From contig RWJK01001652.1 in assembly GCA_004335835.1 (NCBI GenBank), positions 1-64,000 of the forward strand: DNA of 64,000 nucleotides, given 5' to 3'. The notes below the pieces were generated by a model. That model worked only from the letters and a program-made list of their open reading frames with translations, did no database searches and was not told the origin of the DNA. The translations under genes and the position numbers were made by a program. Position 1 is the first letter of the stretch; each line of letters starts with the position of its first letter. The DNA is from Scenedesmus sp. ARA3 (taxonomy: Eukaryota; Chlorophyta; Chlorophyceae; Sphaeropleales; Scenedesmaceae). This document shows positions 4,779-62,485 of this stretch, in pieces.

Positions 4779-4820
<42 letters not shown>

Positions 4821-7800
4821 TACAGCCAATGCGGCCGCACCTGTCCCTGCTGCCGAAGGCCGTCGGGTTGTTGTTGAGCTGGCGCAGCGCAGCCAGGGCG
4901 TGGCTCTCATCAGCAAACTCGACAAAGCCGAAGCTCATCAATAAGAACCGTTGTATTGCATTGTCAAATGTTACGCACCGAGGCTTGTAAGTTTGTGATC
5001 TAGCTAGCACAAACACCCCTACTGCAGGCGCTGCGCCATCAAACAACAGCAGGAGCAGAATCACACAGCCCGCCCGCACCTGTCCCTGCTGCCGAAGGCT
5101 GTGGGGTTGTTGTTGAGCTGGCGCAGTGCTGCTAGGGCGTGGCTCTCATCAGCAAACTCGACAAAGCCGAAGCCGCGGCTCTTGCCGCCCGGGTGGCCCG
5201 CCGCATCAGGGCGCTCCGGGTCACGCAGGATCTTGGCCTGCGGGTAGGTGGGTGGGCCAGGGTGACAGGAACGTAAATTCGAAGTTAGAGATGTTCATTT
5301 GGGTGGCAGACGGGGTTCTCAGCAGGCAAAGCACAGAAGGCCAGCGTCCGAAGGATGTAGACACATCCAGAGAATAATCAATGGTGGCTCATACTACCTG
5401 AGATGGTGGCAGGACCCATATATAGATAACCTCTCTGTGAAATAAAGCACTGCGTGTGCAAAATGGCGCTGATTGCCCTTACTCTGCTGGCACATGTGAC
5501 ACGCATGCCCAGGATGTGACCCAAGACTCTGCTGCTGTAACAAAAAAGAAAATGCTGCTGCGCCGCACCTGCTTCACGACTGGCCTCTCCTTGGTGGCGC
5601 GCGCCTTGACTCCCGCGATGAATGCCGCCTTGAGCTTGGCCTCGTCCCAGCTGGCAGGGATGTTGCGCACAGCCAGGCGCGTGGTGGACACCTGGTGGAG
5701 CAGCAGCAGCAGGAGCAGCAAGGGCGCCAGCAATACAAGGGCTGGGCACTGCAGCAGCAGTTGCAGCAGTCGCACTGTGCCAGCTGGCAGGGATGTTGCA
5801 CACAGCCAGGCGCGTGGTGGACACCTGATGTGGTGCGTGTGCGAATGAGGCACCCAGCAGCAACAGCAGCAGTAATCAACAGAACACCATGAACAAGGCA
5901 GGGTGGGGGACGGCAGTGTCAAGAGTTGCAGGGCTGCAGCAGTGACACCTGCTGCCTGCCTGCAGTTGCAGCCATCACAGTGCTGCTGCCACAGCAGGCC
6001 TGGTGGTGCAGCTGTGGCAGCAGCCAATGCAGCCAGCAGAGCCAGCAGTACGCTCTCAACAAGGAGCTGCAGCAGTGACAAATCCTGCCTGCCAGCAGTT
6101 GCTGCAGTCACACTGCTACTGTTACAGCAGGCCAGCTAATGAAGCTGCGGCAGCAGCCGCGCCACCCAGCAGCGCCAGCAGCACACCCACCGCAAAGTTG
6201 GGCGACTTGAGCTTCTGGTTCTTCTCCTCCGCTGCACGCTTGCGCTTGCGCCTGCAGGACAGCAGCAACAGACCGTAAACTGTCATCTGTTCAGCAGCTG
6301 CAGGCGCAGGGCACCTTGGTGGATGTAACACAGACGCATAAGATTGAAACGGCATAATTTGGGCAGCCCTTGCTTCATCATATCTAGCCTGCAGTATGCT
6401 TGGGCGGGAGCTACCTGCTGTACCACCAGCTACCAAACACCCACAATATAAAGAACCACCTACAGTGTGCGTGGATGTCAAGTTTCACAAGTCGACATAA
6501 CATGTTATGAATGTGTTCCCGCCCCACCTGTCATTCTCCGACATGGCCTCCCACTGCGCACTGCCCTCCTCAATGAAGCCCTCCTTGGCCAGGTACAGGT
6601 TGCGCCGGTCAAACTTGCCGCCCTTGTTACTTTGACCGGCGCTTTTACCGGCGCCCGGCACGCCGCCCTGCTCCTGCCCCAGCCGCCGCGCGTCGTCCTG
6701 GGTCAGCGCCAGGTCAACGCTGAGTTTGACTCCTTTGACCATCACATCGGGGCCCTTGCCTGCGCGTGCGCGCGCGCAGGCGTCTGCTGCTGCTGCTGCG
6801 CCTGCTGCTCCCTTGAACTCGATGAATGCTGTGCCCTTGGGCTTGCCTGTGGCCTTGTCCATGACCACGCGGCAGGCTGTGACCGGCCCGAAGCGCTCAA
6901 AGCGAGCCTGCAGCAGCAAGGAGCAGAAGAGCAGGAGCGGTGTCAAGCAGCACGTAACAGGAGGAACAGCCTTGTGAGCAAGCATGCATGTCGGTGGCTG
7001 GCGATGAAGCAGTCATGCCAAATGCCACCCCATGATGTTCGAGTCCAGGTGTCCCCTGGATAATGCCAGCTTATGGTAGACGCCTGAGAGTACATTACTG
7101 CCAAGTCTTTGTACATTTCAAGCTGTCCTACAAGTCAAAGACATCTCTGAGCCCTGCCCTGGAGCGCTGCCACCTGCCTCACACCTGTAATTAAGTGGGT
7201 CAAGCTGATGCTTTGAGCTTTGTCGCAATTTGCACTTGTAAGTGTCAAGCGCCGGCAGCGCTGCCCCCTGCCCCTCACCTGCAGCTCAGGGCTGGTCACG
7301 TCCAGCGGCAGCCCACGCACAAACACCGTGCTGGCAACAGCAGCGCCCCTGAAAGGTGCTGCAGCAGCAGCATCTGGCGCCCCTGCCGGCGGCTGCTTCT
7401 GCTGCTGCTTCTGTTGCTGCTGTGCCTGCTGCTGCTGCTGCGGCTGCTCCTGTGCTATGACTGCATCCAGTGCACTCTGCATGACTGCCCTGTCCTGGTC
7501 AAAGCCCCGGTCCTCTGAGCCCTCTTCCTCTTCGCCTTCTTCTAAACCCTCATCCTCAGAAGCCTCCTCCTCATCAGATGACAGCGCCTCCTCATCTTCT
7601 TCTGCTTCCTCTCCTTCTTCTGCTTCACTGCCTTCCTCACCATCTCCGCTGCTGCCAGCCTGCTCAAAGTCCTCGGACCCCTCCTCTTCCACTTCTGAAC
7701 TCAGCCCACCATCACTATCCTCATCCTCCTCATCCTCATCTTCCTGCAAGCTGTCCTCTGCTGCATCTGCTGCTGCTGCCGCTGCAGCCTGCCCCCCAAC

Positions 7801-10111
7801 AGCCCCCTGCTGCTGCTGCTGCTGCAGCTGCTGGTACTGCCCCTTGCCCAGCGCCCAGTCAACCGCCACAGGCCGCTTGCGCAGCAGCTGCCCGTTGACT
7901 GCAGCAAGGGCCTTTTCTGCCTCGTGATAAGACAGGAAGGAGGCAAAGGCAAAGCCTGTGCTGCGGCCGTCGGGGCGCGTGGGCAGCTGCACCTGCCAGG
8001 CAAACACGCCTGAGGGCGCCAGCAGCTTGCGCACCTCTGCTTCTGTGGCCTGCGGATTTTTGGGTGGTGGTGGCAGTGGAAGGAGGTAGAAAGAAAAGCA
8101 GGCAAGCGGTCAAAGACGTGCATGCTGCAACAACGCTGCCGGCACAATAGCCCCAAACGTGGCTACCAGCTGCCATGCATGCTGCTGCTGCCCTGCTGCT
8201 GTGCGTGCCCAAAGCAACACCCCACCCAGCAGGATCACCTCCTCAGCCCCACATAACTGCGCCCCAACAAGCAGCAGCAAACACAGCAACTCATTGGCTC
8301 CACGTAGCACTGCAAACACGCCAGTCACCTGGAAGGCAAGGTTGCGCAGGATGAGGCGCCACTTCTTCACCAGAGCACCCTCGCCACTGACATGCCTGGC
8401 CCACAGCACAGTGCCACCATCACTGCCAGCCGCAGCAGCTGCAGCAGCAGCCGCAGCAGCCTGCTGCTGCTTCAGCTGCTTGGCGGACAGCTGTGCCGCC
8501 TGCTTCACTTTTCCTTTCTTGCCTGCTTTGCCACCTGCTGCTGCCGCTGCTGCTGCTGCCTGGGCGGCCACCGCTGCTGCTGCCTCTGCTGCTGCAATGT
8601 CTGCTGGGCTGATAGCTTTGCCGTGCAGCTGCGTCACTGCATGGCTGGCCTCCTTGACCTGCAGGAGTGGGCAGAGCGGGGAACCAATGGTGTGTTTGTT
8701 ATGTTGTGCATGTGCAGTCGCTTTGATCGTCAACAGTCTAAAAGTTTCACGGGTGTGATGTGCCTCTGCAATTCTGAAGCTTGTACTCGTCGTAAACATG
8801 GAGACACCACACGTAAGCTTGCTCCATCACTACTCACTATGCTGCCTAAAGCTGTCGCAGGGCTGCAGGGAAAAACAAACAACACTGACCGTGGCGTACA
8901 CCAAGAACACCGCCTCGCCGCTGCAGCCGTCCTGCGCCAGGTGGGCCCGGCCCGCCACGTCAGCCGGCGGCGGGTCGATCACTTCCTGCAAGCCGCCCGC
9001 AGCCGCCGCCAGCTGCAGCGCGTGCGCCTTGACCTGCTGACTCAACCCGCCCAGTGCCACGCTGCGCACCCACTTATGCTTGTCCTTGCCTGCGTGCTGC
9101 CCTGCTGATGCTGCTGCGGCTGCAGCTGCGGCAGCTGCCCCTTCCAGTGGCTGCTGCTGCTGTTGTTGCTGCTGCTGCTTCTGGCGTTTGGCTGCGGGCT
9201 CTGGTGCGGGCTTGACAGGCTTGGCTGCTGCTGCAGGCTGCTGTGCCTCATCTTCGTGAGCAGCTTCATCGCCTGCGGCTGCATCTCCCTCTGCTGCTCG
9301 CTTGCGCTGCTTGCGTTCCTGCAGCGGTGCACGCTTGTGCGCGAGCTCGATCTGCGGCCGCGCGAGGCAGTGACAGGAGTGGCGCAAAGACCAACACTTT
9401 CAGCAGGCTAGTAGTTGGGCAGGAAAGATTGCAGAACTTGAGGACTTTTGAGAACTCTAGAACAAAATTCAGCATCAGTGCTTGGTCGCGGCGTGCTGCT
9501 GGTGGACCTAGCCCCACTGAACGCTGGTGCTGCAGCAGGTGGTGCATGCCAGCTCTTGTCACGGCAGAGTAGGCAGATGCAGGTCAGCTGCTGCAGAGCT
9601 GACACACCAGCAAAAAGTGTGGTATTGCTGACGCATGACGCCTGCCTGCTGAGGAGAAGTTGTGCTGCACACTTGCTGCCATGTCATGACAGTCCAGCAG
9701 TACAGCAGCAGCAGCAGCAGTCAACCACACTGCATGCAGTACCGGCCACTGACAGCAGTTTACATGCTGCAGGCAGAAACTATAAGCATCACTTTATTTA
9801 TATGTGGCAACATATAGGCTGCCAATAACAAGGGTGTCGTCCTGCAAGGCACACACCTTCAGCCTGCGGCCGGCCACCTCTGTGCCATTCAGCTCCTCCA
9901 CAGCCCGCTGAGCATCCTCCGGAATGGCAAACTGAACAAAGGCAATACCTCTGTGCTTTGTACCCTCTGCACCCTTCTGCGTCACCAGGAAACACTGGCG
10001 AACGGGACCTATGTCGGCAAACACCTGCTCCAAGCCAGCACTGTCGACAGAAAAGGCCACATTTCGCACGAACAGTGTACGAGCATCCTTCTCTGCTCCT
10101 CCGTCTGGCAT
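3745..10111 (-). CDS. RBM28: nucleolar multi-RRM RNA-binding protein (RBM28/Nop4 family)
   Basis: Nine exons on the minus strand: 10111-9857, 9351-8890, 8658-8329, 8049-7279, 6907-6528, 6251-6191, 5691-5569, 5237-5080, 4603-3745. Phases match at every junction and the lengths sum to 1132 residues. Five RRM-like units are visible. RRM1 (about 11-90) has RNP2 LFVRNV and RNP1 HRGIAFVQF. RRM2 is degenerate and holds a long Ala insertion. RRM3 (about 340-420) has RNP1 STGFAFASF. RRM4 (about 588-665) has PKGTAFIEF. RRM5 (about 752-845) has RGFGFVEF. An acidic Asp/Glu/Ser stretch lies between RRM3 and RRM4, and the C-terminus is Gln/Ala/Lys-rich, ending RWFD. Nop4/RBM28 proteins act in 60S ribosomal subunit assembly in the nucleolus. 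The protein is longer than the human one because CAG tracts encode Gln and Ala runs. The start is the first ATG in frame (MPDGG). Confidence 0.88.
4815..4935 (-). repeat. intronic copy of the 3' half of RBM28-like exon 8, with donor site
   Basis: This lies in intron 8 and repeats 5080-5175 of exon 8, including the splice donor ACAG|GTGCGG. The encoded stretch FGFVEFADES...NNNPTAFGS is identical in amino acids. The five base differences I count are all synonymous. A possible acceptor (GATGAG|C) would make the copy a symmetric phase-2 exon. Confidence 0.85.
5780..5828 (-). repeat. intronic copy of the 5' end of RBM28-like exon 7
   Basis: This repeats the start of exon 7 (codons for VSTTRLAV.NIPAS) upstream of the true exon, at an offset of about 137 bases. 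One residue differs (Arg to Cys). Confidence 0.8.
5946..6180 (-). repeat. direct repeat within RBM28-like intron 6
   Basis: Segments 5946-6052 and 6087-6180 are similar. Both hold a CTGCC(T) tract, CACAGCAGGCC or TACAGCAGGCC, and an Ala/Gln-codon-like end (GCAGCAGCC). They lie in the intron between exons 6 and 7. Confidence 0.55.
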
Positions 10112-14683: not shown

Positions 14684-14722
<39 letters not shown>

Positions 14723-15116: not shown

Positions 15117-15149
<33 letters not shown>

Positions 15150-18128: not shown

Positions 18129-18216
<88 letters not shown>

Positions 18217-20009: not shown

Positions 20010-20053
<44 letters not shown>

Positions 20054-39032: not shown

Positions 39033-39083
<51 letters not shown>

Positions 39084-45314: not shown

Positions 45315-45349
<35 letters not shown>

Positions 45350-47314: not shown

Positions 47315-47357
<43 letters not shown>

Positions 47358-47788
47358 AGGGCTTTGACCTGGCGCTGGTTGACGCTGTGTCCAAGGCGGT
47401 GACCATCCCAGTGATCGCCAGCAGCGGGGCGGGAGCACCCAAGCACTTCACAGAGGTGCGGCGCAGCAGCAGCACAGCGCAGCCTGCAAGCCTGCATGCC
47501 TAGCTGTAACATTATCAGCTGTGGCTGCTGTGTTGTCAGCTGTGGTTGCTGTAATGTCAGGTGACTACGCTATGGTGATAGCACGCTGGCTGAGACACAA
47601 CACACTCAACGCCTCTTGCTGACACCCCCTGCCCCGCCTGCCCGCCTGGTGCTGCTCTGCAGGTGTTCCAGTCGACTGGCGCTGCTGCTGCGCTGGCTGC
47701 CGGCATTTTCCACAGAAAGGAAGTGGGCATCATTGAGGTCAAGCAGCACATGGCAGGCAACAGGGTGCCCGCACGCATTGCTGCCTGA
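42508..47788 (+). CDS. HISN4: imidazole glycerol phosphate synthase, bifunctional HisHF, plastid-targeted
   Basis: Eleven exons: 42508-42705, 43008-43133, 43618-43742, 43983-44093, 44425-44823, 45359-45446, 45729-45847, 46251-46386, 46746-46979, 47360-47455, 47663-47788. Phases agree and the product is 585 residues, near the 592 of Arabidopsis. Residues 1-37 are Ser/Arg/Lys-rich, a likely chloroplast transit peptide. The N-terminal HisH glutaminase has [12 protein letters not shown], the nucleophile Cys117 in GICLGMQ, and His223/Glu225 in FHPEKSG. The C-terminal HisF cyclase starts at KRVIACLDV (Asp279) and has [18 protein letters not shown] (Asp438) and PVIASSGAG. It converts PRFAR plus glutamine-derived ammonia to imidazole glycerol phosphate and AICAR, the fifth step of histidine synthesis. 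Introns carry many copies of exon edges and one assembly gap. Confidence 0.95.
44325..44365 (+). repeat. intronic copy of HisHF exon 5 start
   Basis: CGCCGCAGGAGGCCAATG and onward repeats the exon 5 start at 44428-44446, about 103 bases upstream of the true exon, with changes (GTAGATAGG for GTTGACTGG). Confidence 0.85.
44907..44950 (+). repeat. intronic copy of HisHF exon 5 end with donor
   Basis: GTGCGCAACCTGGGCAAGCC and onward repeats 44786-44823. The copy ends GCTGCTAG|GTGAGG where the true exon ends GCTGCACG|GTAGGT. Two of the Leu/Ala codon changes are synonymous. Confidence 0.9.
45224..45291 (+). repeat. intronic copy of HisHF exon 6 start with acceptor
   Basis: GTGCAG|GTACTTTGACGAGG repeats the true start ATGCAG|GTACTTTGACGAGG at 45353 and runs through codons for [18 protein letters not shown]. 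It has four synonymous changes and one Gly-to-Val change, then TGA where the exon has TGC. Both copies are preceded by a (CTG)n run. Confidence 0.95.
45513..45545 (+). repeat. intronic copy of HisHF exon 6 end
   Basis: GCGCCCATGCTTGGGGTGAG repeats the true end CTGCCCATGCTGGGGGTGAG (45432-45451). Confidence 0.75.
45922..46082 (+). repeat. tandem copies of HisHF exon 7 end plus donor, running into an assembly gap
   Basis: 45922-45975 repeats 45803-45856, including TACTTCAG|GTGAGCGCTTCAGG and about 70 bases of following intron, at an offset of 119 bases. A third, more diverged copy starts at 46034 and enters the N run. Confidence 0.92.
46083..46106. other. assembly gap (24 N)
   Basis: The N run lies inside the tandem exon 7 copies of the HisHF gene. 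The assembler probably failed on this repeat, so the true copy number is unknown. Confidence 0.98.
46140..46185 (+). repeat. intronic copy of HisHF exon 8 start with acceptor
   Basis: GGCAG|GTCTGGCGCCTACCAGGTGT repeats the true start TGCAG|GTCTGGTGCAGACAAGGTGT (46246-46270). It then diverges through GATGCAGTGC. Confidence 0.8.
46646..46685 (+). repeat. intronic copy of HisHF exon 9 start with acceptor
   Basis: CCAG|GTCAGCAACGACTCTC repeats ACAG|GTCAGCATCGACCCTC (46742-46761), about 92 bases upstream. Confidence 0.7.
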
Positions 47789-47852: not shown

Positions 47853-47895
47853 GCACGTGGCAGATAACAGGGTGCCTGCATGCATCGCTGCCTGA
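47853..47895 (+). repeat. copy of the HisHF C-terminus and stop codon in the 3' flank
   Basis: CACGTGGCAGATAACAGGGT and onward repeats 47748-47793, the codons for [12 protein letters not shown] and stop, at an offset of about 105 bases. It also ends GCTGCCTGAG. Confidence 0.85.
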
Positions 47896-48970
47896 GCTGT
47901 TTGTGTTAACGCTACATAGTGTAGTGAGCGCGGCGTTCACGAGGGCTGGCGCCCTGTGTACCATGAGCGGCGCTTGCTGCCGTCACAAACAACGTGCTGC
48001 ACGCATAGCGGCGGTGAGGTTGAGAAGGTTGAGAAGGCAGGCTGTGCATGGTCTGTGTTTGGTTTGGTTGGCTTGCAAAATGTGCAACAGAGCAGCAGCC
48101 ATGGAGCTGCCGTTTCACCCAGTAATGGTGGAATTAATTTGCTGCATGTTCAAGGTGTGCCGCGCATTTTCTGGCATTTGACGTGACCGCGCGGCTGACC
48201 TTTTTCTTTGTCTAGGTTTGCAGCATTTGTATTGGAGATGGCGTAATAGCTGCCACAGCCACCAGGGCTGCATCCAGTGGGCAATGCCATTGGTCACAGC
48301 GTGAATGGTGCGGCAGGCGGCACCCCTTGGGAGCAGTTGCAGCTGCACGCGTCTTGTGTGGTGCCATCTGATGTTGTGATGCGTCTGTTGGCTTCACGCA
48401 ACTAGGCAGTGGCAATGATGACTGTGGATTTCAGGAGCCTCCTGAGGATACTCTGCAAGGTAACACAGCAACCAGCTGGAGCCCCAGGACCCTACACCAG
48501 CGACGCACTGCACACGCGACAGCGGTATCGTGTCCTGCTGCCGCTTGGCGCCAAGCCTGCGGCCTGCTAGACTTGGTACTACCAATTGGTGGTACCGTCG
48601 ACGTCTTTCATAACATGCGATGGCTATCGTATGCAGCAGTTGCCACCTATGAGCAGCAGCCGATTCTGCAAGCTCTGTAGCACTGGACCCAGTTACCTTT
48701 TCACCTAGGTTTTCACAGGCCTGTGATAGCCACAGCCAAGCAAGACCACACACCAAACTGCACCAGAACAAACCCATGCCAACCCAGCCTGGGAGCACGG
48801 CAACAAAAAAATATGGGAGCACGGTGGGAGCATCAACGTCTGACGTGATTTAAATCAAAGCAAGCTATTCACAACCTGGGCACAGCAATTGAAATCAAAG
48901 AGGAGAGCCATCAGCACTGCCAGAACTCACTAAACCAACAAGTTTTCATAACCAGGCTGTTGCGCCACTC
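47896..48970. other. convergent intergenic region, no gene seen
   Basis: The 3' flanks of HisHF (+) and the P450 fusion (-) lie here. No exon-like frame was found. Confidence 0.4.
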
Positions 48971-49025
48971 TAGCCCGCCCACACGTCCTCCAGGTAGCGC
49001 TTCACCTCCAGCTGCTGGACTCCAG
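48971..49025 (-). repeat. copy of the P450 fusion C-terminus in its 3' flank
   Basis: 48971-49015 repeats 49236-49285 (codons for LLEAKRYLEDVWAG and stop on the minus strand). The copy reads LLEVKRYLEDVWAG-stop. It lies about 267 bases past the true stop. Confidence 0.88.
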
Positions 49026-49171: not shown

Positions 49172-49237
49172 GTAGCGGATGGCTGTGGCATGCAGCGTCA
49201 ATGCATGCTGCGCCATTTTAATGCCGTGCAGCGCTCT

Positions 49238-52200
49238 CTAGCCCGCCCACACGTCCTCCAGGTAGCGCTTCGCCTCCAGCAGCCCGCCCATCCAGCTCTC
49301 AGCAGCAGCAGCGTTGCGGCCACCACACGACTTGGCCATCTCCTTGAAAGCATTGCGCACATCTGGCGCCATGCGGCGCGCATCGCCGCACACGTACACG
49401 TGCGCGCCCGCCTCAAATAGGCCCCACAGCACGGCGCCCTGCTGCAGGATCAGGTCCTGCACGTACACCTGCAGGGGGGATGTAACACGGAAAGTAACAG
49501 AGAAGGTAACAACCCTAGTCTGTGTCTGTATGTCTGCCACAGCGCGGGACCCTGCTGCAGGATGAGGTCCTGCACATACACCTGCAGGGGTGAATGTAAC
49601 AGAGACAGTAACAGAGAAAGCAACAACCCTAGTCTGTGTCTGTATGTCTGCCACAGCGCAGGGCCCTGCTGCAGGATGAGGTCCTGCACGTACACCTGCA
49701 GGGCGGATGTAACATAGAAAGTAACAGAGAAAGTAACACCCTAGTCTGTGTCTGTATGTCTGATACAGCGCGGGGCCCTGCTGCAGGATGAGGTAGCCCT
49801 CCAGCTCAGCCCCAAGGCACCCAAACCCACTGGCCATCTAGCAGCTTCAAATGCCTGGCCACACCCTACAGCAGCCGTTCAAGGTCAATCTGTCGTTTAA
49901 CAAGCTGCAGCAGCTGTCTCCCTTGCTCACCTTGCTGGCCCCTGGCTCCCTGCTGAAAGCGACATGCAGCCCAGCCAGCACACCACTCTTGACATAGCCC
50001 TCCAGCTCAGCCCCAAGGCACCCAAGCCAACTGGCCATGTAGCAGCAAAACATGCACTACCACTCCTGCAGGGCTTCAAATGCCTGGCCACACCCTACAG
50101 CAGCCGTTCAAGACCAATCTGTCGTAAAACGCTGCGGCAGCTGGCCCCCTTGCCCACCTTGCTGGCCCCCGGCTCCCTGCTGAAGGCCACGTGCAGCCCA
50201 GCCAGCACGCCACTCTTGACGTAGCCCTGCAGCTCGACCTCGGCAAACCAAACCGGATGGCCATCTAGCAGCAAAAAATGCACGGCAACCACTGCAGGCC
50301 TAAAGAAGCCTGCAGCAGCCGATCACTTTCATTCAACACACTGCAGCAGCAGCTGTCTCCCTTGCTCACCTTGCTGGCCCCCGGCTCCCTGCTGAATGTC
50401 ACATGCAGCCCAGCCAGCACACCCAAAGCCAGGCAGCCCTCCAGCTTAACCTCAACAAACCAAACCGAATGGCCATTTCGCAGCAAAACACGCACGGCGA
50501 ACTGCTGCAGGCCTAAAGAAACCTGCAGCAGCCGATCACCGCCATTCAACATACAGCAGCCACAACTGCCCCCCTTGCTCACCTTGCTTGCGCCCGGCTC
50601 CCTGCTGAATGCCACGTGCAGCCCAGCCAGCACGCCACTCTTGACATAGCCCTCCAGCTCAGCCCTGTAGATGAAGTCCTCCACGCTGCTGCGGCAGCCA
50701 AAGAAGAGGTGCGCGGGGCCCAGGGCTGCACCACCAGCAGCGAGTGCGGCGCGCTCCTGCAGGAAGCCCATCATGGGCGCCACACCAGTGCCTGCACAGC
50801 CACAGGTGCGGAAACCAGGTTACTTTATGGTTTAGGTATTTGGGTTACAGAGTTTCAAAGGGTTTGTGGCAGCCAGTGCGACGCGCTCCTGCAGGAAGCC
50901 CATCATGGGCGCCACGCCGGTGCCTGCACAGCCAAACGTGATGTAGGTCGGGTTTAGGGTTCCAGAGTTAGGGTGTTTGTGGCAGCGAGTGCGGCGCGCT
51001 CCTGCAGGAAGCCCATCATGGGCGCCACACCGGTGCCTGCACAGCAACAAGTGGTACAAGTATATGTGCTTTAGGGTTGCGATCAGATCAAGGGTTTGGT
51101 GGCAGCCAGTGCAGTGCGCTCTTGAAGCCCTCATCATGGGCACGGCGCCGGTGCCTGCACAGCCAGCCGCACAGCACGCGGTCAGCGCAGCACATAGTGC
51201 CTGCAGTAGCGACTGTTGTGACGAAGCATCCACACACTCTCAAACATGAGGAAATGCATCAGCATGTTCGCAGTCTCCCCTCACCTGGCCCAATCATGAT
51301 GACAGGCACAGCAGGGTCCTTAGGAAGCCTGAAGCTGCTGCTCAGCTTGCGCACACAGCCCAGCAGCTTGCCGCCCACAGGCGTGGCGTTGATGGTGGCT
51401 GAGGCTGCGCCCCTGTGGAGCCGCCCGCTGGGTGTGGTGAATGCCACCAGGCCCACGCTGATGCTGCAGGTGCCGGGGCGCGCCAGTGGGGAGCTGCTGA
51501 TGGAGTAGTAGCTGCAGGGCAGGCAAGGCAAACACAGCGCAGGGATGGGTGGCAGAGGGACAAGTACGCATGGTGCTGTATGCAGGAAGTAGGCTCAGGC
51601 TGTGTATGCAAAGGAAAGGAACCACCGGGGGAATAGCTGCGGTACACCATGCCAAGCAGAGAGCTGCTGATGGAGGCAATCATCATCATGATGGAGCACT
51701 GCTATGCGGTGCACATGGAGCCACAACCAGAGTTTTGTTATGCATCTGATGAGGTGACAACATGCATAGTTATGGCAGCGCCATTATGCAGCATGTGGCT
51801 GTCGCAGTTGCGTGCTCACCGTGGCCCCATGCGTGGCAGCAGGTTGGCCAGCTGATCCAGTGACACGCTGAGCGACTGGAACTGGCCCAGCAGCTCAACC
51901 AGCGTCAGGCGCTGACCAGACACCTGCAGCCAGCCAGCAGCAGCAGGTGTTTGACGGCCTATCGAGAACGCCTTGCCCAGCACGACACAGTACAATGAGG
52001 AACAGCAACCACAGGCAGCCAATCGAAAGCAGCACCCAGTCTTGATCTGCTGCACTCAATCCCCTCCACTACACACATGCCCTGCCAAAGCTTCTTGAGA
52101 ACAGCTCACCCTCTCCTTGTACCCCTCCTCTGTGGCCAGCTGCCTGCTGCTCTAAGCCGCGCTGCACGACAAGACTGGCGTCGTGTCCCGCGTAGCACCA

Positions 52201-55200
52201 TGTCAGCGCTCCTTTTCTCATCAAATTCAAAGCAATAACGTTGTAATGCAGGACAATGATGCCAAGGAGCCGCACCTTCTCTTTGTAGCCCTCCTCTGTG
52301 GCCAGCTGCCGCAGCGCCGCAGCCTCAGGCGGGCAGGGGCAGGCCTCCGCCAGCAGCGACACGGTGCGCTTGCTGGGCACGGCAGCCAGGTCAACCAGCC
52401 ACGTCAGCGCGTCAGACACTGACAGGATCAGGCTCAGGCCGCCGCTGCTGCCCAGGCTGCGCGCACTGCCGGAGCCGCCCTCAATGTTGGCGCGCCACTG
52501 CACGCGCTCCGAGCCTGCAGCCAGTGAATGACACCAACGTGGCAGCCAGCAGAGGGCGGATGGTACAAATTGAATTAAATAGTGAATTTGCTATTTGCGT
52601 CGCTCCTTCTGTGCGCCACTCCACGCACTCAGCGCCTGCAGCGGCACCAGACAAGAACCGCATGTTAGTGAGGCAAGCAGCAGCAGGCAGGAGGAGTGAC
52701 AAGCCAAGCAAAGAGCACTGCCGGAGCCGCCCTCGATGTTGGCACGCCACTGCACGCGCTCCGAGCCTGCAGAAAGCGGCAGCAGGCAAGTACCGCATGT
52801 CAGTGAGGCGGTGCTCAGCAGGCAGGAGGAGTGGGATGCCAAGCAGAGAGCACTGCAGGAGCCGCCCTCAATGTTGGCGCGCCACTCCACACGCTCCGAG
52901 CCTGCAGAACAGGCACCAGATAAGTGCCTCATGTCAGTGGGGCAGGGAGCAGCATGCTGGAGGAGTGACAAACCAAGCAGAGAGCGCTGCCGGAGCCGCG
53001 ATCAATGTTGGCACGCCACTCCACGCGCTCCGCGCCTGCGACATCACCAGAAAAGTGCCGCATGTTAGTGAGGCAAGGAGCAGCAGGCAGGAGTTACAAA
53101 GCGAGCACTACCAGAGGCACCCTCAATGTTGGCGCGCCACTCCACGCGCTCACCGCCTGCAGCAGAGGCACCACACATCAACGCGCAAGACATGTTCAGG
53201 GCATGTTTGTATGGCAGCAGGCTGGAATAATCCAAGGCAAGCAAGCAGCCACGATTGCAGCTGTGAAAGATATATGTCCACGCCATCACCAAACACGTCA
53301 CCACGCCCTGTCTACAGCTGAATAATGCAGCATCATTGTGACAATCTCACTGCGACTGCCTGCTGCTCCCACCTGTCAGCCCCAGGCGCTTGAGTGCAGC
53401 CGCCACCAGGGCCTTGTCATTGTTGCCCATCACCTCCAGGTGGTCGCCCGCGCTGTACTGCCCCGCCTCCCCTGCAGGCAGCGCCAGCTGCACGTGGCGC
53501 GTGCTGCGGCTGGCGCCGGGGCCCTGCAGCTCCCGGTTCTCCAGCACCTGCAGGCAGCAGCAGCAGCAGCAGCAGCAGGTGTTCAGTGCACAGCAGGCAC
53601 ATGACAGCTGCGGCTGGCGCCGGGGCCCTGCAGCTCGCGGTTCTCAAGCACCTGCAGACAGCAGCAGCAGCAGCAGCAGCAGCAGGTGGTGTTCAGCACT
53701 AAACAGGGGATGTAATGGATGCTTGCAGATGACTGTTGCAGTACATAGGTGGAGAGGAAGACAGGCATGTGCTCACAGAGCGCGCATTGAGTGGCACCCT
53801 GTTGTTTCCCCTACGCAGCCACCTGGCTGTTACATGTCGTTGTGTAACAAATCGAACGGTTCTCACCTCCAGCAGGTGATAGCCGTCCGGCTTTGCAGCC
53901 CTCAGCTGCGCAATGACCGTCTCCACACTGAGCGCCTGCCCAGGCTCACTGGCCTCCAGCAGCCGCAGCTGCAGCCGAGCCTTGGCCTCGCCTACAGTAG
54001 CAGCAGCAGCAGCAGCAGCAGCGCAGCTGTCACAGCATGTGCGTGGTGTATAAGGCGTGATGTACACGCATTGCAGTACATCGGCACCTGTACCAGGCAG
54101 GCTCATGTCAACACGCAGCAAGCTGTCGACAAAACCTCAAACTCATGATGCTGCCGCACCTGCCGCCGCGCCGCTGTTGACTGCAGCCACGTATGCCTCT
54201 GGCGGGTTGACTCCGAACGTGACCAGCAGCCCCCGCAGCACCTCGCGCTGCCACTCGTCAAAAGCCTCCATCCAGTCGTTGCTGTCCACGTCGCTGCAGC
54301 GCATCTCCATCACCTGGGGTTTTCAAGGTGTGCATGTTTGGCAGGCAGGGCATGCAACCACAGGTCAAGCACTCACATCAAAATCCCAAGGCGGTCAACA
54401 TACTTTCATTCTGAATTGGTGTTGAGTGCAAGCAGCAGCAGAGTGGTTGGCACCAGCTGCAGGAACCGTACATATGTTGCGCGCATGGTTCCCACCTGTG
54501 TCGCGCCGGCGCGCGCCAGCCCCAGCGCCACCTGTGTGGGGAAGGCCTGGTAGGTCTGCGCCCACTGGCTGTTGCCCACACCAAACACGCTGAAGGTCAC
54601 CTTGGACAGCGAGCCTGCAGAGGCAGCAGCAGCAGCAGCGCAACGGTGTTCAGCAATCAAACACCGGTCTTTCACGCTCTGTTTTGCAAGAAGCATGCTT
54701 CCATTCTTGAACGCTGCTGCTGCTGCTGCTGCTGCTGCTGAATATCTGGCTTTTTGTTCAAAGCAATGTGCAGGGCTCATCCCTTGCTCACCGTCCGCCT
54801 GCTTGGGCAGCCAGCGCGCAAACTCGGCCGCATTATCAGGCGGCGTGCCATTGTACGTGCTGCTGATCACCAGCAGGGCCCCCGCCTCTGGCAGAGCACC
54901 GCCTGCTGGCCCTGCAGGTGTGGCCATCACACTGTCCAGGCTGGCCGTCTTGGCGGCAAAGCCTGCGGCTGCGGCTTGGCCAGCCAGGCTGGATGCCAAC
55001 TCCTCACAGGTGCCTGCAGGTTGGGGGAAAAAAGCGGCAAAACATGCTCTACGGTGCAGCTGTGGCTAGCACAGAGGGCGTGGGGGTGTTGCGGCAGGCG
55101 CTTGGCAGACAGCAAGTCGCTTGACAGCTGCACTTTCACAGACAGGCGCTGATGGTGCAGTACTACACGTGTCTCATGGTGAAGTGGTGAAGCCGCAGAT

Positions 55201-57500
55201 AAGGGCCACAGAAGGCATCATGAACTCTGCCAGCAGCAGGGGCTGCTGCCATGCCCCATAAAGTGCACGCTGAAGCTTCTGCAGCAACATACTGCAGCGC
55301 AAGGCTCAGCAACGCTACTACTGCACCAACCAGCAAAAAAATAGGACACCAAGCAGTCAGTCACGAGCATGCGCAGCAAGCCTCACCTGTGTTGGAGCCG
55401 TACAGGATCAGCAGCGGCGTGCCGTGCGACGCCTCAGCCGCAGCAGCAGCGGCTGCAGGCGCGGCGTCATTCTGTGCAGCTGCAGGGGCGGCGCCCTTCT
55501 GTGCGGCTGCGGGCGCTGCTGCTCCTGCCTTTGCTGCTGCCACTTGGCTGCTGATGCTCTGCACATGCGCATGAGCACCACAGTACCACAGCCAGTGAGG
55601 CGTCAGCAGCGCATTCTCAACACTAACCCAGCCACACTGTGTTTGGACGCGCAGGATATGCTGCAAGTTTTCAAATTCCAGGTCATGCACTGTAGCCATG
55701 TCACAAGCTGCAAACATAACGCTCGCACCTACCTCCAGGACTGCGCCGCTCTCCTTGCGCTTCCAGATGCGCAGCGCCAGGTGGTGCGGGGTGGGCGCGG
55801 CACCACCGTCAGCCGTGCTGGGCAGCGGGCGTGCAAAGCCCTCCGGCACACGGAACCTAGTGGTTGTGATGATATTCAAGGCAGCAAGCGCAGGAGCAGG
55901 CGCGAGCGGTGTGTAAATGCTGGGGTGGGTTGGGTAGTGAGCCATGCTGGGCAGCGGGCGGGCAAAGCCCTCAGGCACGCGGAACCTGGCGGGCGGGTGC
56001 AGCATGAGGGCAACAGGTGCAGGCATGTAGCGTGTCCGGCTTGGGATGAGGCGGGCTCGTCAGGTGTTGCTGGTGATGGTGGCAGTCAGTTGAGGCGCTT
56101 GAATGTGGCGCTGGTGCCGTCTGATGATACGTGGACACAGCGCGTGCTGGCTGGCCGGATGTGAGTTGGCAGCAACAGCCGCGAATAAAACAAGGCAGGC
56201 GTCCCAGCAATGCCTTGCTTCATGCAGCTTCCTATTTGCAGGCATCCTTCTGCAGTTGGTTTGTTGCGTTTTTTGCATCAGTAATCAGCCAGTGCTGCAG
56301 CTCACTTGAAGCAGCGCAGCACCATGCACAGGAAGAGCTTGCCCTCCCACAGCGCAAACTGGCTGCCGATGCACGCGCGCACGCCAAAGCCCCACGGGTT
56401 GAACGCGTTGGGGTGGCGGCCACTGGCCTCCGCAGCACCTGGCCGCGCAGCAGCAGCAGCAGCAGCAGCAGCAGCGTGAGGGACATGATATCGCCAAATT
56501 AATGAAGCCAGGAAGCAGCACAGGCACCTTGCTTGCACAGAGCTGGACACATGCATGGGTTGACGTAATCTGTCTGCCCAGGCGCTTGCACCACCTTCAA
56601 CCTTCAAGCACATGGCATGAAGCGCTCCAGGCTACAGCGGTTGGTTCACCAAACAGCACGAGCTGATCACTCAAAACACTCAACTGCAGTACAGCGCATG
56701 GCTGGGTCAGCCGCACCTGGCATGAAGCGCTCAAGGCTACAGCGTTGCGGTCTCCAAACAACACCAGCTGGTCACTCAAAGTATCCTGTTTCACCAAAGC
56801 CGCACCTGGCATGAAGCGCTCGGGGTTGTAGGCGTTGGGGTCCCCGAAGCTGCCTCCCCACTGGTCCTCACGCCGCTGCAGCGCCACGTTGTTGATGTCC
56901 ACGCGCTGACCCTTGCGCACAAACCAGGTGCCTGCACAGGTGGCACAACAGCGCCAGCACATAGCAGCACAAAAACAAGGTATCAGCATCAGCTGATACG
57001 TCACAACATGCAGCATGTCCACGCGCTGACCCTTGCGCCACAAACCAGGTGCCTGCAAGGCAAGGTGTACAGCAGCACCGCGGCGCAACAATTTGCCTGA
57101 GCAGTCACCAGGCTGACAGATGTGTGACAAGGTCGTATGTGGCAGCAGCTGCTACAGGTGGCAGACAGGTCAACTGACCATCAAGTGTGGTGTCAGCATT
57201 CACAGTGGCTGTGCCTAATGCGGCCTGTCAGCTGTCAACAATGTACCCCGCAGCTCATCAGTCATAATTTGTGGCATGACAGACGCATAAGCACATGTTT
57301 TGGCTCACCCTTGAGTGTGGTGTCAGCATACACAGTGGCATGTATCTCGCAGCTTATTTGTCGCAAAATGTGGCAACACGAAGGCAGCTGCTGTTGCTCA
57401 CCCTTGAGTGTGGTGTCTGCGTACACGTCGCGCGTGACTGTGCCCACTGCGGGGTGCAGCCGCAGCGCCTCCCTGAAGCACGCCTCAAGGTACAACTGGT

Positions 57501-57532
<32 letters not shown>

Positions 57533-60500
57533 TGCAGCAGCACAGGCAGGCAGTTCACATACTCTGGCAATGTCGGAACACTCAACAATGATCAAGCAGC
57601 ACACGCGCTACCGCTGGTTCATCTGCCTGACCTTCCAGTGCTTGATGTGCACATCAGCATGTGCATTACGCGCAAAAGCGCGCTGGCCTGTCACGTGTGC
57701 AGCTCTCAGGCAAGCATGTAGCAGCTCGAACGGCGCCTGGCATCAGGGCTCTGGACACTTCAGGTAACGGACCGCTGGAAGATGCCAGCTAAAAGTTTTG
57801 TTGAACGTTTCCCCTGGGAAAGATAGCTCTGAAAACGGTGATTCAAGGCTAAAACATCACGCACCAGCTTGGGCACGTCGTCAGCTCGTGGCTCGCAGCG
57901 CTCCCCCAGCACTGTGCTGATCTCCGCCAGCGCCTTGGCCTCCACCTCGGGGTGGGTGGAGATGTAGTACAGCGCCCACGCCAGCGTAGCAGCAGTGGTC
58001 TCGTGGCCTGCAGCACAGCACAGATGGACAAGCATCGCGGGACTTCAGGACATCATCGTGTGCGTTGTTAACATGTGAATGAGGTGCAGGCAGAGCTGTT
58101 ACATGTGATGGTAGCGCCGCTTCCTTTGTGTTACTCCGCAGCCGCATAATGTTTTGCTGCTCAGATGCCAACACTACCACGCAGCAAACCACAAAAGACA
58201 ACAAGCTGCACATCACGCCTGGCAACACACGTCTGCCGCTGCGTGCGGCACCGCATCTGCTGCTGCAGTGTTTCCCAGCCACGCACCGGCGATCATGAGG
58301 TTCATGACCTGGCCGTAAATGTTCTGCAGCCGCACGTAGTCCCCGGTGGAGGGGCTCACGTCGTTCAGCATGGCACTCAGCACAGACTGGGGGCCGCCAA
58401 TCTCGCCCTGCAACGGTTAAGCAAGTGTATTGGAGCAACAGAGGTGTCTAGAGCGCAACAAACAAGACCGCTGCCTTGCAGTGATATTCTTGTCGAGCAA
58501 GTGTGTATGCAAAGCAGTGCTGTTGGTTGTGTGTTTGAAAATGCAGCAGTAGGCTTGCCAGCAGCGCAGCCATGGCGACAACAGCACGTCTGCCTGCCGC
58601 AGGGACGGCACAGCACAGGGCTGTGCGCAGCACCAACATCCACCACACAACTGCAAGATCAGCAGCTGAACAACCAGATTATTTGGTGTGCCGACTAATC
58701 ACCTTGCGTGTGCGCTCCAGCAGCTCGCTGACCACGTCGTGGCTGGCCTGCAGCGCAGATGCCTTCTTCTTGGCCAGAGCAGCAGCGCCATCAAAGAAGG
58801 GGTTCCACGCCGCCAGGGAGCCAAACTCGGACTCAACGGTGGCCCTGGTGGTGCGGGTGGCAGCGGCAGGATGCTATGTGAGGGGGCAAACACACACACA
58901 CACATGTGAACACACATGTGACTTCAGGTAACATGTTCAACAGGAAGACCATGCAGCATGTGTTTCCTGCAGCGTGCACAGCCACACGTCAGTGCATGCG
59001 GCAATTGAGAAACTTGATGATCAGGTGCGGCCTGGTACCATAAGACAGGAGTCCAGCTGAGAGGATTGCTGGCTGCACAGCTGCCCAGCGCCGACTCCAG
59101 GCAGCATCTCCAGATCAAGCCGAAAGCAAAACCAATAAAAAACCGGCCACATTGCCGCACACGCAGCAGCTCACCTGCCCAGCGCCGACTTGAGGCAGAA
59201 ACGGAAGGCGTCGATGAACTTGTGCAGCGGCTGGCCCGCAGCCTTGGCCTCCACGTTGCCCATGTCCTGGCGCAGCAGCAGCAGCAGCAGCAGCACTTAC
59301 AATCGGCAGTTGCGCCAGCAGCAGCAGGCCGTGATGCATGCATGCACACCACCTGCATGCATGCACCCCAAGTGTCACTGTAAATACCCATGAGCAGCAG
59401 CAGCAGCAGCAGCGCCAGCCCAGCCGTCTCACCATGCCCATGGCCGCCTTGACCACCGCGTCAGCCGTCATGCATGTCAGCCAGTCGCTGACGCCCTCAA
59501 TGGTGCCGCCCTGAGGCATCTGCGCCCACGCCGCCACAAAGCTGCGCGTCTTGTCCAGCAGCACCTGCCAGCAGCAGCAGTAGCGGCAGTAGCAGGGGCA
59601 AGGGCCATGGGCACATGCACATGTTGACTGCGCGTGGGAACTGTGCCACGCATTGGGCGCATCACAAACTAGCAGCGTCAGAGCTCGCAGAGAGCAAGCC
59701 GAGCTGTACCATACAGCACAACGGCGTGCACGGATACACTCAGCACTGTGCTATGCGTTTGCACCGGCGTGCACACTCCACTTCTTGTCTTGTGCTCACC
59801 CCAAAGTAGTTCTTGATGCGTATCTGGTTGAAGGCGCGTGGCAGCAGGCCGTGTGCCACCTGCCAGTCCTTGTCCAGGGTGCTGCTGGTGAACAGGCCGT
59901 TGCCTGGCAGCAGCAGCAGCAGCAGCAGCACAAAGAACGTGTCACGCCGAGGTGATGTTTTCGCTGCTTCAGCTCAAACTCTTGTACATACAGGCCCATG
60001 AGTGGCCGCAGGACATGCGGTGCTGGTGCACAGAAAGCCCCCCAGCACGGCACGGCGCCCAGACATCAGCAAACACTCACAGACCAAGCAAGAGCCTGCA
60101 CCATTGCACTGATGAGCTGCAGCAGCACGGCTGCTGATGCTGGCTGGTCACTGCCTGCTGCTGCCTGTAATCCACCACCGGAATGCTGCTGCATGCCCAT
60201 CCCCATCGCTGCTGCCGCTGCCGCTGCTGCTGCTGCCGCTGCCGTGTCGAGCAGTCGCCCTCACCTGCCACCGCCTGCAGGCTCCGCTCAGCCTTCCTGC
60301 GGCCCCACAGCTGCACACAGACAGCAGCAAGCAGCAGGAGGTATTAGCATGAGGCACAGCCCCAGTGAGTGCCCACATGCAGGCTGTGCTGCTGGCATGT
60401 TGCAGCGATCATTGCTTCTGCACGCCTCATCTGTGCCGCTAGCAAAACAGGTTCGTAATTTGATAAAAAATGTGTGGTGTCCTGGTTGCGTTATAACATA

Positions 60501-62485
60501 GTTCAAAACCAATCAATAGTCACCTTTGGAAAATCCTCCTGGCGCGCCAGCAGCTCTGCCACCACCTCAGGGTCACACGTGGCAACAGCATAGTCCAGCA
60601 GGCCGGGCTGCACGTCCTGCAAAAACAAAGTGACCACAGCAGAGTGAAGACATTGCAGCGGCAGAAGAGGGCCACCAGGAAAAGGGTCGGGGCTGACAGC
60701 GCAGAGCAGCATGCCATGATCACTCTGCAGGTGCTGGCTGCATGCCTTGGCAAGAGGCATTTGCAGGCACTGCAGGCAGAGTGTGGAGCTGTGACGGCAC
60801 TGCACATGAACTCAGCCTATCAGGCTGACAAGAGTTCAAAAAAAATTGCGCCTCAAGAGTGTGCCAGCTGCGCCCGTGACCCTGCCCTGCCCAGTGAGCT
60901 GCGTCCTGCCAAGTGCTGCCAGCACCACCAGCACTGAGCTGCTCCCTCCTAGCATGCTGCTGCTGCTGCTGCTGCTGGCATCTGTATACTGCCCGCGGCC
61001 CACCTCGAGCACCTCCCCTTCAGGCCCATTTGAGCCCGGCAGCAGCAACAGCACTGTGCAGCGCTATGTTCACCTTCTGCTGCTGCTGCTGCTGCTGGCA
61101 TCCATGCAGTGAGCTCACCTTGAGCACCTCCCCATCAGGCCCACCCGAGTGTGGCAGCACGATGAGCACCGTGTCGCCCCACACAGCACGCTTCTCAGGC
61201 GCAAACACGTTGGCCGCAAAGTTGTATGCGGGGTGACCCCGCCCGCCCTGCTTGTACAGCAGGAAGCTGCCTACCAGTGGCAGCGGCTTGGGCCCTGGTC
61301 AAACGCGGTCAACCACAGCATAACATGTTACTACTTGTCACTTTGTGCTGTCATATTTCATCATGCGCTGCCGCCCAGCACTGGAGTCCAAAGAGATGCT
61401 GCGCAAAGGCTGCATGCAGCATCGTGCATGGTCCGTCAAACTTTTCCAAGCTACGGTCAAGCAGATAATATTACCTGCAGGAATAGGCAGCAGCTTTGGG
61501 GCCTGCTGTGCTGTGCTGCTGAGCGGCTGGCTGTCTGCAGTGGCCAGCAGCAGCAGCACGCCTGACACGCGCAGCGCGGGGCTGGCCAGGGCTGCTGCCA
61601 GCTCAGCTGAGCTGCTCAACTCAGGCCTGCCCTCAGCCTGAGGAAGCATAGACACACATGCAGCAGCAGCAGCAGCAGCAGCAGCAGAGCTCAGTCGGAT
61701 GGGGTGGAGTGTTGAACAGAAAGAAGCACATGCCTGTGGAGGTTGTCTGATGAAGTTTTAGTGGTCATCCAGGAAAGGCAGTCTTGCAGGTGTCAGGGGT
61801 GGGGCAAGGATGTTTGCAGTCGGTTGCAGCGGTTGGCTGGTGCAGGCGAGACAGCTGCACATGGGATGCATGTGACAGCAATACATCATGAAAGTAGGTG
61901 GCCACTGCACCCAAACGGCTGCAAAAACCTTTGAAGCAGCAGGCGTGGTGGTGGTGGGCACCACACTGCTGCTAATTAGGCAAACCCTGACAAGCAGGTG
62001 CTGCAGGTGCTGCTGCAAACTGGTGCTGTTATGGACTGTAAGGAGAGCAGTTGAAGCAAGCTTACTAAAGGCCACACATGCATCACTCTTGAGCAATGGT
62101 TTGGCCATACAGTAGCGAACACAGCAAGCAAAGCAAGCAGCAGCTGATGCATGACAGGTGAGTGGGTAGTGACTCTGCTGCTGCATGCTACTGCTCCAAG
62201 GCACTATCGCTAGTGCCTCATGCCTGCCTCCCGCAGCCACCAACACACCTGCTCAACGAACAGCCTGCAATCTTCTATGTGCAGCTTTTCCTCCACTTGG
62301 CCCTTCAGCTCGTCGATGCTTTCGCACTTGCCCAGGTGGATGCCATTTTTGCTGCCATCCAGGAACACCACCACCCCTTGCTCACACGTAATCTTGTTTG
62401 TGTACACATATGCAGCTGCTCCTGCTGCCGTGGCAGCAAGAGCTGCACCGGCCAGCAGGCCGGTCTTGCCTTCAGGTAGTTGCAT
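49238..62485 (-). CDS. self-sufficient cytochrome P450 fused to P450 reductase (CYP102/CYP505-like), membrane-anchored
   Basis: Twenty-six exons on the minus strand: 62485-62249, 61637-61475, 61294-61119, 60616-60524, 60310-60265, 59903-59800, 59564-59433, 59266-59175, 58844-58703, 58407-58287, 58007-57865, 57495-57402, 56931-56806, 56438-56306, 55856-55733, 55558-55387, 55013-54792, 54614-54496, 54313-54160, 53991-53867, 53547-53373, 52514-52276, 51923-51820, 51511-51285, 50791-50583, 49468-49238. All phases agree; 1300 residues. Residues 8-28 look like a membrane anchor and 29-130 are an extra N-terminal domain. The P450 part has AGHETT (435-440), EALR (492-495), NPERF (550-554) and the heme loop FGVRACIG with Cys579. 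An Ala/Gln linker leads to the FMN motif YGSNTG (695-700), FAD motif RYYSISSSP (1079-1087), NADPH motif GTGVAPMMGF (1155-1164) and CGDARRMAPDV (1251). It ends DVWAG as in P450 BM3. Such fusions hydroxylate fatty acids or similar substrates with NADPH and O2. Confidence 0.93.
49540..49800 (-). repeat. three intronic copies of P450 exon 26 start, one fused to exon 25 sequence
   Basis: The exon 26 start (codons for VYVQDLILQQG with acceptor CTGCAG) recurs at 49540-49590 and 49653-49703. A third copy at 49766-49793 keeps LILQQG but is joined directly to exon 25-like codons (AELEGY). Spacing is about 105-115 bases with shared filler (TAGTCTGTGTCTGTATGTCTG). Confidence 0.92.
49920..50462 (-). repeat. 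three intronic copies of P450 exon 25 end with donor
   Basis: The exon 25 end (codons for GVLAGLHVAFSREPGASK, donor AAG|GTGAGC; exon at 50583-50665) recurs at 50356-50462, 50149-50240 and 49920-50015. Spacing is about 215-230 bases with shared filler (CTGCAGCAGCCG and CATTCAAC). The amino-acid reading is largely kept in all copies. Confidence 0.93.
50876..51163 (-). repeat. three intronic copies of P450 exon 25 start with acceptor
   Basis: The exon 25 start (acceptor TGTGCAG, codons for GTGVAPMMGFLQER; exon at 50745-50791) recurs at 50876-50932, 50986-51044 and, diverged, 51112-51163. All lie before the true exon in transcription order, so each offers an earlier decoy acceptor. Confidence 0.93.
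51645..51685 (-). repeat. intronic partial copy of P450 exon 24 start
   Basis: GAGAGCTGCTGATGGAGGCA recalls GGGGAGCTGCTGATGGAGTA of exon 24 (51489-51508). The SISSS reading is kept on the minus strand. The acceptor part is lost. Confidence 0.55.
52105..52165 (-). repeat. intronic copy of P450 exon 22 end with donor
   Basis: The codons for LATEEGYKE at the exon 22 end (52276-52310) recur at 52108-52140, ending AGG|GTGAGC where the exon ends AAG|GTGCGG. Confidence 0.85.
52600..53162 (-). repeat. five intronic copies of P450 exon 22 start with acceptor
   Basis: The exon 22 start (acceptor CTGCAG, codons for GSERVQWRANIEGGSGSA; exon at 52460-52514) recurs at about 52604-52639, 52719-52771, 52849-52906, 52983-53040 and 53105-53161. 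Four keep WRANI; the most diverged is the first. Spacing is about 130 bases with shared filler (AAGCAGAGAGC, CATGTTAGTGAGGCA types). Confidence 0.95.
53606..53656 (-). repeat. intronic copy of P450 exon 21 start with acceptor
   Basis: The codons for VLENRELQGPGASRS with acceptor CTGCAG (exon at 53500-53547) recur here. Two synonymous changes and no amino-acid change are seen in the first 15 codons. Both copies are preceded by a (CTG)n run on the minus strand. Confidence 0.93.
55941..55990 (-). repeat. intronic copy of P450 exon 15 start with acceptor
   Basis: The acceptor GCCAG|GTTCCGCGTGCC and codons for FRVPEGFARPLPS repeat the exon 15 start (55812-55856), about 128 bases before the true exon. 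Confidence 0.9.
56607..56760 (-). repeat. two intronic copies of P450 exon 13 end
   Basis: The exon 13 end (codons for ERFMPG; exon at 56797-56830) recurs at 56711-56760 with the same CAG|GTGCGGC donor and at 56607-56655 with a weaker one. Confidence 0.85.
57015..57060 (-). repeat. intronic copy of P450 exon 13 start
   Basis: The exon 13 start (codons for GTWFVRKGQRVD with acceptor TGCAG; exon at 56891-56931) recurs with one extra base, at an offset of about 121 bases. Confidence 0.85.
57180..57340 (-). repeat. two intronic copies of P450 exon 12 end
   Basis: The exon 12 end (codons for VYADTTLKG and donor GGGTGAGC; exon at 57402-57430) recurs at 57303-57340 with its donor and at 57180-57210 without a clear donor. 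Confidence 0.88.
60991..61060 (-). repeat. intronic copy of P450 exon 3 end
   Basis: The exon 3 end (codons for GPDGEVL; exon at 61119-61170) recurs at an offset of about 120 bases, with its (CTG)n neighbour also repeated (60958-60975 and 61079-61096). The copy has lost the clean donor. Confidence 0.85.

Follow-up and report, generated by a model that had tools for sequence, protein, structure and literature searches.

Dense exon-edge echoes in a 64-kb stretch of the Scenedesmus sp. ARA3 genome, a variant of internal gene duplication

Segments can be duplicated inside genes, pieces that combine exon and intron included, an event that Gao and Lynch reportedly described in 2009 as internal gene duplication. 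Tandem duplication is given as one route to new introns in the accessible part of a review (PMC3443670). In the potato RdRp gene, according to the portion of the report available to us (PMC4974935), one duplication crossing an intron-exon boundary produced a new intron via a cryptic donor. Repair-mediated duplication, as presented in the excerpts of that study consulted here (PMC2671141), yields short local duplications, partial exon and intron pieces among them, and captured nearby DNA; copies less than 50 bp apart were excluded there, and an inverted exon is one of the examples. In the literature searched (titles and abstract openings, with few subscription papers among them), no dense copies of exon edges were described in Tetradesmus or another alga. 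The copies reported here, which we call echoes, are real, spread through the genome yet patchy, and a dense variant of internal gene duplication.

The window, meaning the whole stretch of DNA analysed, comprises positions 1-64000 of one contig from an 87.27 Mb assembly of 1,567 contigs. Gene models were generated by spliced alignment of close homologue proteins to the window using our own aligner. Three genes rebuilt in this way (HisHF, P450-reductase and RBM28-like; Table 1) have 46 exons, 43 introns and 92 edges; each homologue protein aligns over its full length, and every intron is GT-AG. Compared with Tetradesmus obliquus OEZ86_007402 (P0241), the RBM28-like protein has 1 difference in 1132 aligned residues; HisHF has 9 in 585 relative to its Tetradesmus obliquus match P0001, and P450-reductase has 26 in 1300 relative to P0121 (98% identical). 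The DNA is that of Tetradesmus obliquus or of a close relative. The source contigs of P0121 are at most 4,480 bases long and have no room for introns, so P0121 looks like a transcript. Of the gene names given in the preliminary description, those of HisHF, P450 and the RBM28-like RRM protein (whose relatives are named RNA-binding protein 28) are backed by close homologues and that of PIG-C by Pfam GPI2; in contrast, the names MED20, beta-helix and Gln/Ala-rich could not be confirmed, as none of the five ORFs taken for these genes (three within 20.3-21.9 kb, another at 25 kb and the last at 10.9-14.6 kb) has a Pfam match. The P450 fused to its own reductase has relatives in other algae, a diatom, dinoflagellates and bacteria. 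Elsewhere in the window, an array at 20526-21318 holds about three units of 242 bp, with three ORFs over or beside it that lack a Pfam match; a related ORF pair, also without a Pfam match (36782-37345 and 38631-39398, about 2 kb apart), shares 70-76% DNA identity in parts; and an inverted repeat (26495-26589 and 26743-26838; 96 bp alignment, 85% identity, loop of about 150 bp) is possibly a small mobile element or a hairpin.

Table 1. Positions in the window of the three rebuilt genes and of the echoes found in and beside them.
Feature	Positions	Strand	Basis and remarks
RBM28-like gene, 9 exons	3748..10111	-	spliced alignment of P0241, whole protein (residues 1-1134); GT-AG in every intron
Echo of RBM28-like exon 8 end	4832..4934	-	alignment; 94% over 103 bp
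Echo of RBM28-like exon 7 start	5777..5830	-	alignment; with acceptor, 94%
Array without exon contact, sole such case in the three genes	5933..6121	-	period 133
HisHF gene, 11 exons	42508..47785	+	spliced alignment of P0001, 585/585 aa; all introns GT-AG
HisHF exons 1-6	42508-42705, 43008-43133, 43618-43742, 43983-44093, 44425-44823, 45359-45446	+	spliced alignment of P0001
HisHF exons 7-11	45729-45847, 46251-46386, 46746-46979, 47360-47455, 47663-47785	+	spliced alignment of P0001
Echo of HisHF exon 5 start (real 44415-44465)	44305..44355	+	alignment; acceptor lost, CAG to CTG
Echo of HisHF exon 5 end (real 44786-44825)	44907..44946	+	alignment; GTGAG donor
Echo of HisHF exon 6 start (real 45354-45418)	45226..45290	+	alignment; with acceptor
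Two echoes of HisHF exon 7 end, second partial	45917..46077	+	period 117, filler also repeated; adjoins N-run 46083-46106
Echo of HisHF exon 8 start	46116..46197	+	alignment; with acceptor
Echo of last HisHF codons and stop codon, no splice site	47853..47899	+	alignment
P450-reductase fusion gene, 26 exons	49241..62485	-	spliced alignment of P0121, 1300/1300 aa; all introns GT-AG
Echo of last P450-reductase codons and stop codon, no splice site	48968..49015	-	alignment; 96% identical
Three echoes of P450-reductase exon 26 start, third partial	49537..49794	-	period 113; filler repeated in first two
Three echoes of exon 25 end	49789..50452	-	period ~213
Three echoes of exon 25 start	50869..51165	-	all comparisons: exon parts differ 2-25%, fillers 29-63%
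Echo of exon 22 end	52107..52144	-	alignment; GTGAGC donor
Five echoes of exon 22 start	52601..53240	-	exon part of e1 short and diverged
Echo of exon 21 start	53607..53645	-	alignment; with acceptor
Echo of exon 15 start	55937..55987	-	alignment; with acceptor
Two echoes of exon 13 end (real from 56806)	56608..56758	-	alignment
Echo of exon 13 start (real 56895-56936)	57015..57057	-	98% identical
Two echoes of exon 12 end (real 57402 on)	57184..57339	-	alignment
Weak echo of exon 8 end	59072..59104	-	alignment; no donor, GT changed to CT
Echo of exon 3 end	60998..61058	-	alignment

When the window was aligned to itself at E<=0.1 after masking of simple repeats, 61 direct pairs less than 800 bp apart were retrieved versus 2 inverted ones. 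With 20 sampled loci on other contigs added (10 kb each, one of 7.9 kb; 261,887 bp together with the window), there were 269 such close direct pairs and 4 inverted, which rules out chance or low complexity as the source of the echoes. Collapsing pairs left 124 arrays, or about one per 2.1 kb, and the 34 of these in the window come near the roughly 40 cases previously claimed for it. The sampled loci were uneven, 3 of the 20 having no array and 3 others having 10 each. Array periods across window and sampled loci begin at 69, fall at 110-139 in 56 of the 124, and form a second group at about 200-280, near double; the lower bound of 69 is specific to the self-alignment search, Tandem Repeats Finder giving units of 12-46 bp in the window. 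The 93 coding-like arrays and the 31 without a coding-like block cover the same size range, and coding-like blocks account for 135 of the 156 blocks in pairs, versus 0.70 at random places. We would like to note that two settings were used. The later ones served for the pair and array counts, the edge and array rotation, the intron lengths and the rerun of the kinase loci described below; the less sensitive ones, which missed three P450 edges that the later settings recovered, served for the initial kinase-locus scan and for the filler-homology, splice-motif-end, triple and N-between-copies counts. The third echo of P450 exon 26 is joined to exon 25 sequence (49765-49809; one frame reads ELEGYLILQQGPALY), so that a breakpoint lies here where two arrays meet.

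In the alignments, copies of exon starts precede the exon and carry its acceptor, copies of exon ends follow it and carry its donor, and an intact exon stands at one end of the array, all as the preliminary description had stated. Across 29 comparisons of a real edge with its echo, each copy spans 23-94 bp at a single exon edge and includes a single splice site or stop codon. Echoes were found for 21 of the 92 edges in the three rebuilt genes, namely 19 of 86 splice junctions (10 acceptors and 9 donors) and, among the 6 CDS ends, 2 that are stop codons. The placement of echoes at splice junctions claimed earlier thus applies to 19 of the 21 echoed edges, but not to the two at stop codons nor to the 31 of 124 arrays that have no coding-like block. 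An apparent echo of the HisHF exon 9 start (46587-46761) was dropped as too weak (E 0.09).

When the exon map of the three genes was rotated, the observed 21 echoed edges compared with 16.4 expected (sd 2.9, P=0.075). By this comparison, of the kind that the preliminary description had proposed as a check, borders are only slightly preferred over shifted ones, and targeting of junctions is not supported. What does stand out is how blocks and arrays lie on exons: blocks touching an exon included its edge in 30 of 32 cases (70% expected) and lacked it in 2 (about 30% expected; P=0.001), and of the 21 arrays, 1 had copies in no exon, 20 had one copy and none had both copies in exons, against 8.7, 7.6 and 4.7 under rotation. 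Duplication looks nearly blind to exon borders, and only placements that leave one intact exon copy were found. The 15 introns that contain a duplicate exceed the other 28 in length (median 470 versus 280.5, P=0.0002).

To account for these patterns as a whole, we give an even chance to a combination in which size-limited tandem duplication is followed by a selective filter and by exchange of sequence between an echo and its exon. A genome-wide process would yield tandem duplications in direct orientation and within a narrow size range (about 70-280 bp, most often 110-140), which would fall on coding and non-coding DNA alike. Selection would then act as the filter: a duplication within an exon would break the protein and be lost, and one across an exon edge or stop codon would be tolerated because one copy stays on the exon and the other is spliced out or left past the stop. 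The duplicated edge would outlast the filler in recognisability, partly since only one of the two copies mutates freely. Echo and exon may further exchange sequence, through unequal exchange or local gene conversion within the still-similar exon block, and this exchange would also multiply units into arrays. Against this account stands the very slight enrichment of edges noted above. Additionally, a count of tolerated placements predicts that about half of the arrays (0.504) lie free of exons, and 1 of 21 does, so duplication and a selective filter alone are insufficient; an age-matched test for the rarity of exon-free arrays was weak (P 0.03-0.11, from a hand-made list of 20 periods).

A simpler reading, which we consider unlikely, has tandem duplication and a selective filter followed by neutral decay only, with no exchange; microsatellites and indels would scramble the fillers, and one exon copy would be constrained. 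Differences between real edges and echoes fall on codon positions 1, 2 and 3 as 48, 29 and 93 over 1,499 exon bases in the 29 comparisons, which have exons in common and so are not independent. These counts come close to the ratio of 1:1:2 predicted when the echo is free and the exon constrained, and they also speak for the account we favour. The adjacent intron differs at 100 of 652 positions (15%) and codon positions 1 and 2 together at 77 of 997 (8%), counting aligned parts only. Decay alone would fit both the codon counts and this factor of two. It would also fit the fillers in part: CTG/CAG runs of unequal length account for some unalignable ones (at locus L009), and filler homology was still found in 33 of 106 partial-block pairs from the window and sample. 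In the remaining 73, however, it was undetectable, a count that is partly circular through the selection of partial blocks, and among coding-like blocks at least 92% identical it was undetectable in 14 of 21, for which neutral decay does not account. The rarity of exon-free arrays is a further difficulty for decay alone. The earlier statement that the filler between copies is often repeated too is thus borne out in part: it holds for young arrays, but those 73 pairs show no detectable filler homology. Two other filler tests were discarded: a global-identity test was too blunt (unrelated sequence has about 0.6 gap-tolerant identity) and partly circular through the choice of partial blocks, and a triple test (0 of 6 triples with homologous fillers) was set aside, L009 being a case of CTG runs of unequal length near similar sequence.

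When one echo is compared with another, both copies should be free to change. In young arrays, which are repeats of whole units, exon part and filler are about equally diverged (7-11% versus 6-9% at the exon 26 start, 9% versus 9% between e2 and e3 of the exon 25 end), and in the arrays at HisHF 45800-46066 and P450 49424-49764 the similarity of the filler roughly equals that of the exon part. Among old echo pairs, in contrast, the clearest have exon-derived parts that differ by 5-11% and fillers that differ by 21-34%, the clearest gaps being 3/55 versus 17/50 (exon 25 start, e1-e2) and 6/63 versus 18/71 (exon 22 start, e2-e3). Over 17 echo-echo comparisons in four arrays, the exon part was less diverged in 13 and at most half as diverged as the filler in 5, the latter within two of the four arrays; it was more diverged in 4, which count against the account we favour, three of them clearly so and involving the short e1 of exon 22. 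The exon 22 start echoes e1-e4 have a common filler (14-26% different) that is absent from the real copy (46-52%). Simple neutral decay is not enough for this gap between exon and filler divergence. The earlier proposal that tandem duplication across a border made the echoes is borne out for the birth of the copies (direct orientation, short distance, whole-unit young arrays); plain duplication followed by neutral decay does not account for the high-identity blocks that lack filler homology.

High-identity blocks without filler homology are also what break repair would leave, if an edge were duplicated and new filler inserted in one step or nearby DNA captured, and the 14 of 21 such blocks accordingly count against the account we favour. 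The available text on repair-mediated duplication reports nearby donors in vertebrates (PMC2671141). Nevertheless, we think break repair quite unlikely here, given the nearly uniform direct orientation (269 to 4) and the young whole-unit tandem arrays. Moreover, several sharp pairs have blocks that stop 2-9 bp beyond the splice site or stop codon and not randomly within the intron.

Exchange between echo and exon best fits these sharp block ends, the high-identity blocks without filler homology and the slow ageing, and we infer it on those grounds. One site in exon 22, at which the real exon and e2 have Q and e1 and e3-e5 have E, also fits exchange. On the other hand, feedback of echoes into exons left no sign in the amino-acid comparison with homologues: echoed segments changed at 5 of 311 residues versus 31 of 2706 elsewhere (P=0.41), a lack of excess that counts against the exchange account (the list of echoed segments included the weak HisHF exon 9 and omitted the three later-found P450 edges). 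Of these five residues that differ from the homologue, two lie in P450 exon 26, where all three echoes keep the homologue's residues; for another, in HisHF exon 7, the first echo has the homologue's and the second another. Some arrays are thus probably older than the split from the homologue.

We also considered an assembly artefact, in which two diverged haplotypes were placed end to end. In favour of it, more than half of the real-echo differences are synonymous (92/170), the assembly has small gaps, one of which adjoins an echo array, and one pair at locus L013 lies on both sides of a 50-base gap. False duplications are marked by gaps between copies, according to the accessible part of a study of them (PMC9516828), but N occurs between or in the copies of 4 of 204 pairs only, and in three of these it is the same single-base N. 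Two haplotypes would not suffice for arrays with four to six copies, and a 3.7 kb stretch used as a query found no second copy of itself among the best genome candidates. An artefact is therefore very unlikely in our judgement. The L013 case itself (8894-9032), a 27-base identical repeat around the gap, looks like an unmerged contig overlap, which is a different error type.

The echoes supply many decoy splice sites. By eye, the decoy GT or AG is retained in 39 of 43 echoes (28 of 30 in the window, 11 of 13 at kinase loci), a count that omits the second echo of HisHF exon 7 and the third of P450 exon 26, where the site lies outside the copy, and that scores a GT to GC change at L025 as lost. 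With about 8% neutral change per site, a retention of 0.85, or about 37 of the 43, is expected, and there is no sign that decoys are either purged or specially kept. Splicing likely ignores them, because the transcript-like P0121 (98% identical) holds each exon once. Could the echoes instead be useful, with decoy sites setting the choice or rate of splicing and held by selection? The retention of decoys would agree with this, as would the exon-derived part with its splice site being the conserved part in some arrays and the lean of echo-private changes to codon position 3 (15, 19 and 36 at positions 1, 2 and 3 in seven arrays), a lean that is unexpected for a wholly free echo and so also counts against the reading we prefer. 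But the retention is near the neutral prediction, the stop-codon echoes have no splice site, and pairs are absent altogether from 15 of 20 kinase loci, and we regard a function of this kind as highly improbable.

These 20 kinase loci, from elsewhere in the genome, came from a Pfam PF00069 search and were picked for at least two nearby matches. Arrays at exon edges were found in four (L024, L025, L032 and L041), L024 having, by our reading, four edges with echoes; under the later settings a pair was present in five, the fifth being L028, where the pair lies at the low end of the kinase match. A test independent of gene models was applied to the 20 sampled loci, where 57 coding-like short-block pairs had a splice motif at the expected end in 24 cases and at the wrong end in 6, and 29 other pairs in 2 and 1, respectively.

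For gene finding, the results are a warning, since copies that resemble exons and carry good splice sites occur commonly in the stretches analysed. If long reads bear the echoes out, the many introns with several near-identical sites would form a large-scale natural test of splice-site choice. If the reading is true, it would provide a route for intron growth, echo-bearing introns being longer, and possibly a stage before intron gain by duplication, and echoes are dense enough that a comparison of strains would yield their rates, sizes and fates. On a bolder reading, which we think rather unlikely, introns would hold a standing, turning-over stock of exon edges, in which ongoing size-limited duplication, recombination matching to the working exon and splicing that chooses among near-identical sites would lead intron length, splice choice and exon sequence to evolve jointly.

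The echoes can be set beside several described systems. They are unlike tandem exon duplication, in which a whole exon is copied with both splice sites, as the copies hold one edge of 23-94 bp. They differ from the repair-mediated duplications of the excerpts cited above in being direct and tandem (269 direct, 4 inverted), and from false assembly duplications in that N is present in 4/204 pairs. Introner-like elements place related sequence at distant loci; here, 10 of 73 window pairs were at least 800 bp apart, and the 3.7 kb query found only itself among the best candidates. Intron gain by tandem duplication is similar in that duplication acts on splice sites, but here there is no exonic AGGT duplication and no demonstrated new intron, the copied donor or acceptor already existed, and in none of the 21 arrays do both copies lie in exons. 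The nearest case found, potato RdRp, involves one gene and a new intron in the portion of the report available, whereas here the copy seems to be skipped whole, and donors and stop codons are copied too, in several unrelated genes. The likeness to internal gene duplication lies in the duplicated segment within a gene, seen here in 21 arrays, 20 with one exon copy; the differences are about one array per 2.1 kb of the DNA analysed, the sharp size peak and the slow divergence of the exon part in some arrays. The type of event is already known, and its density here is unusual.
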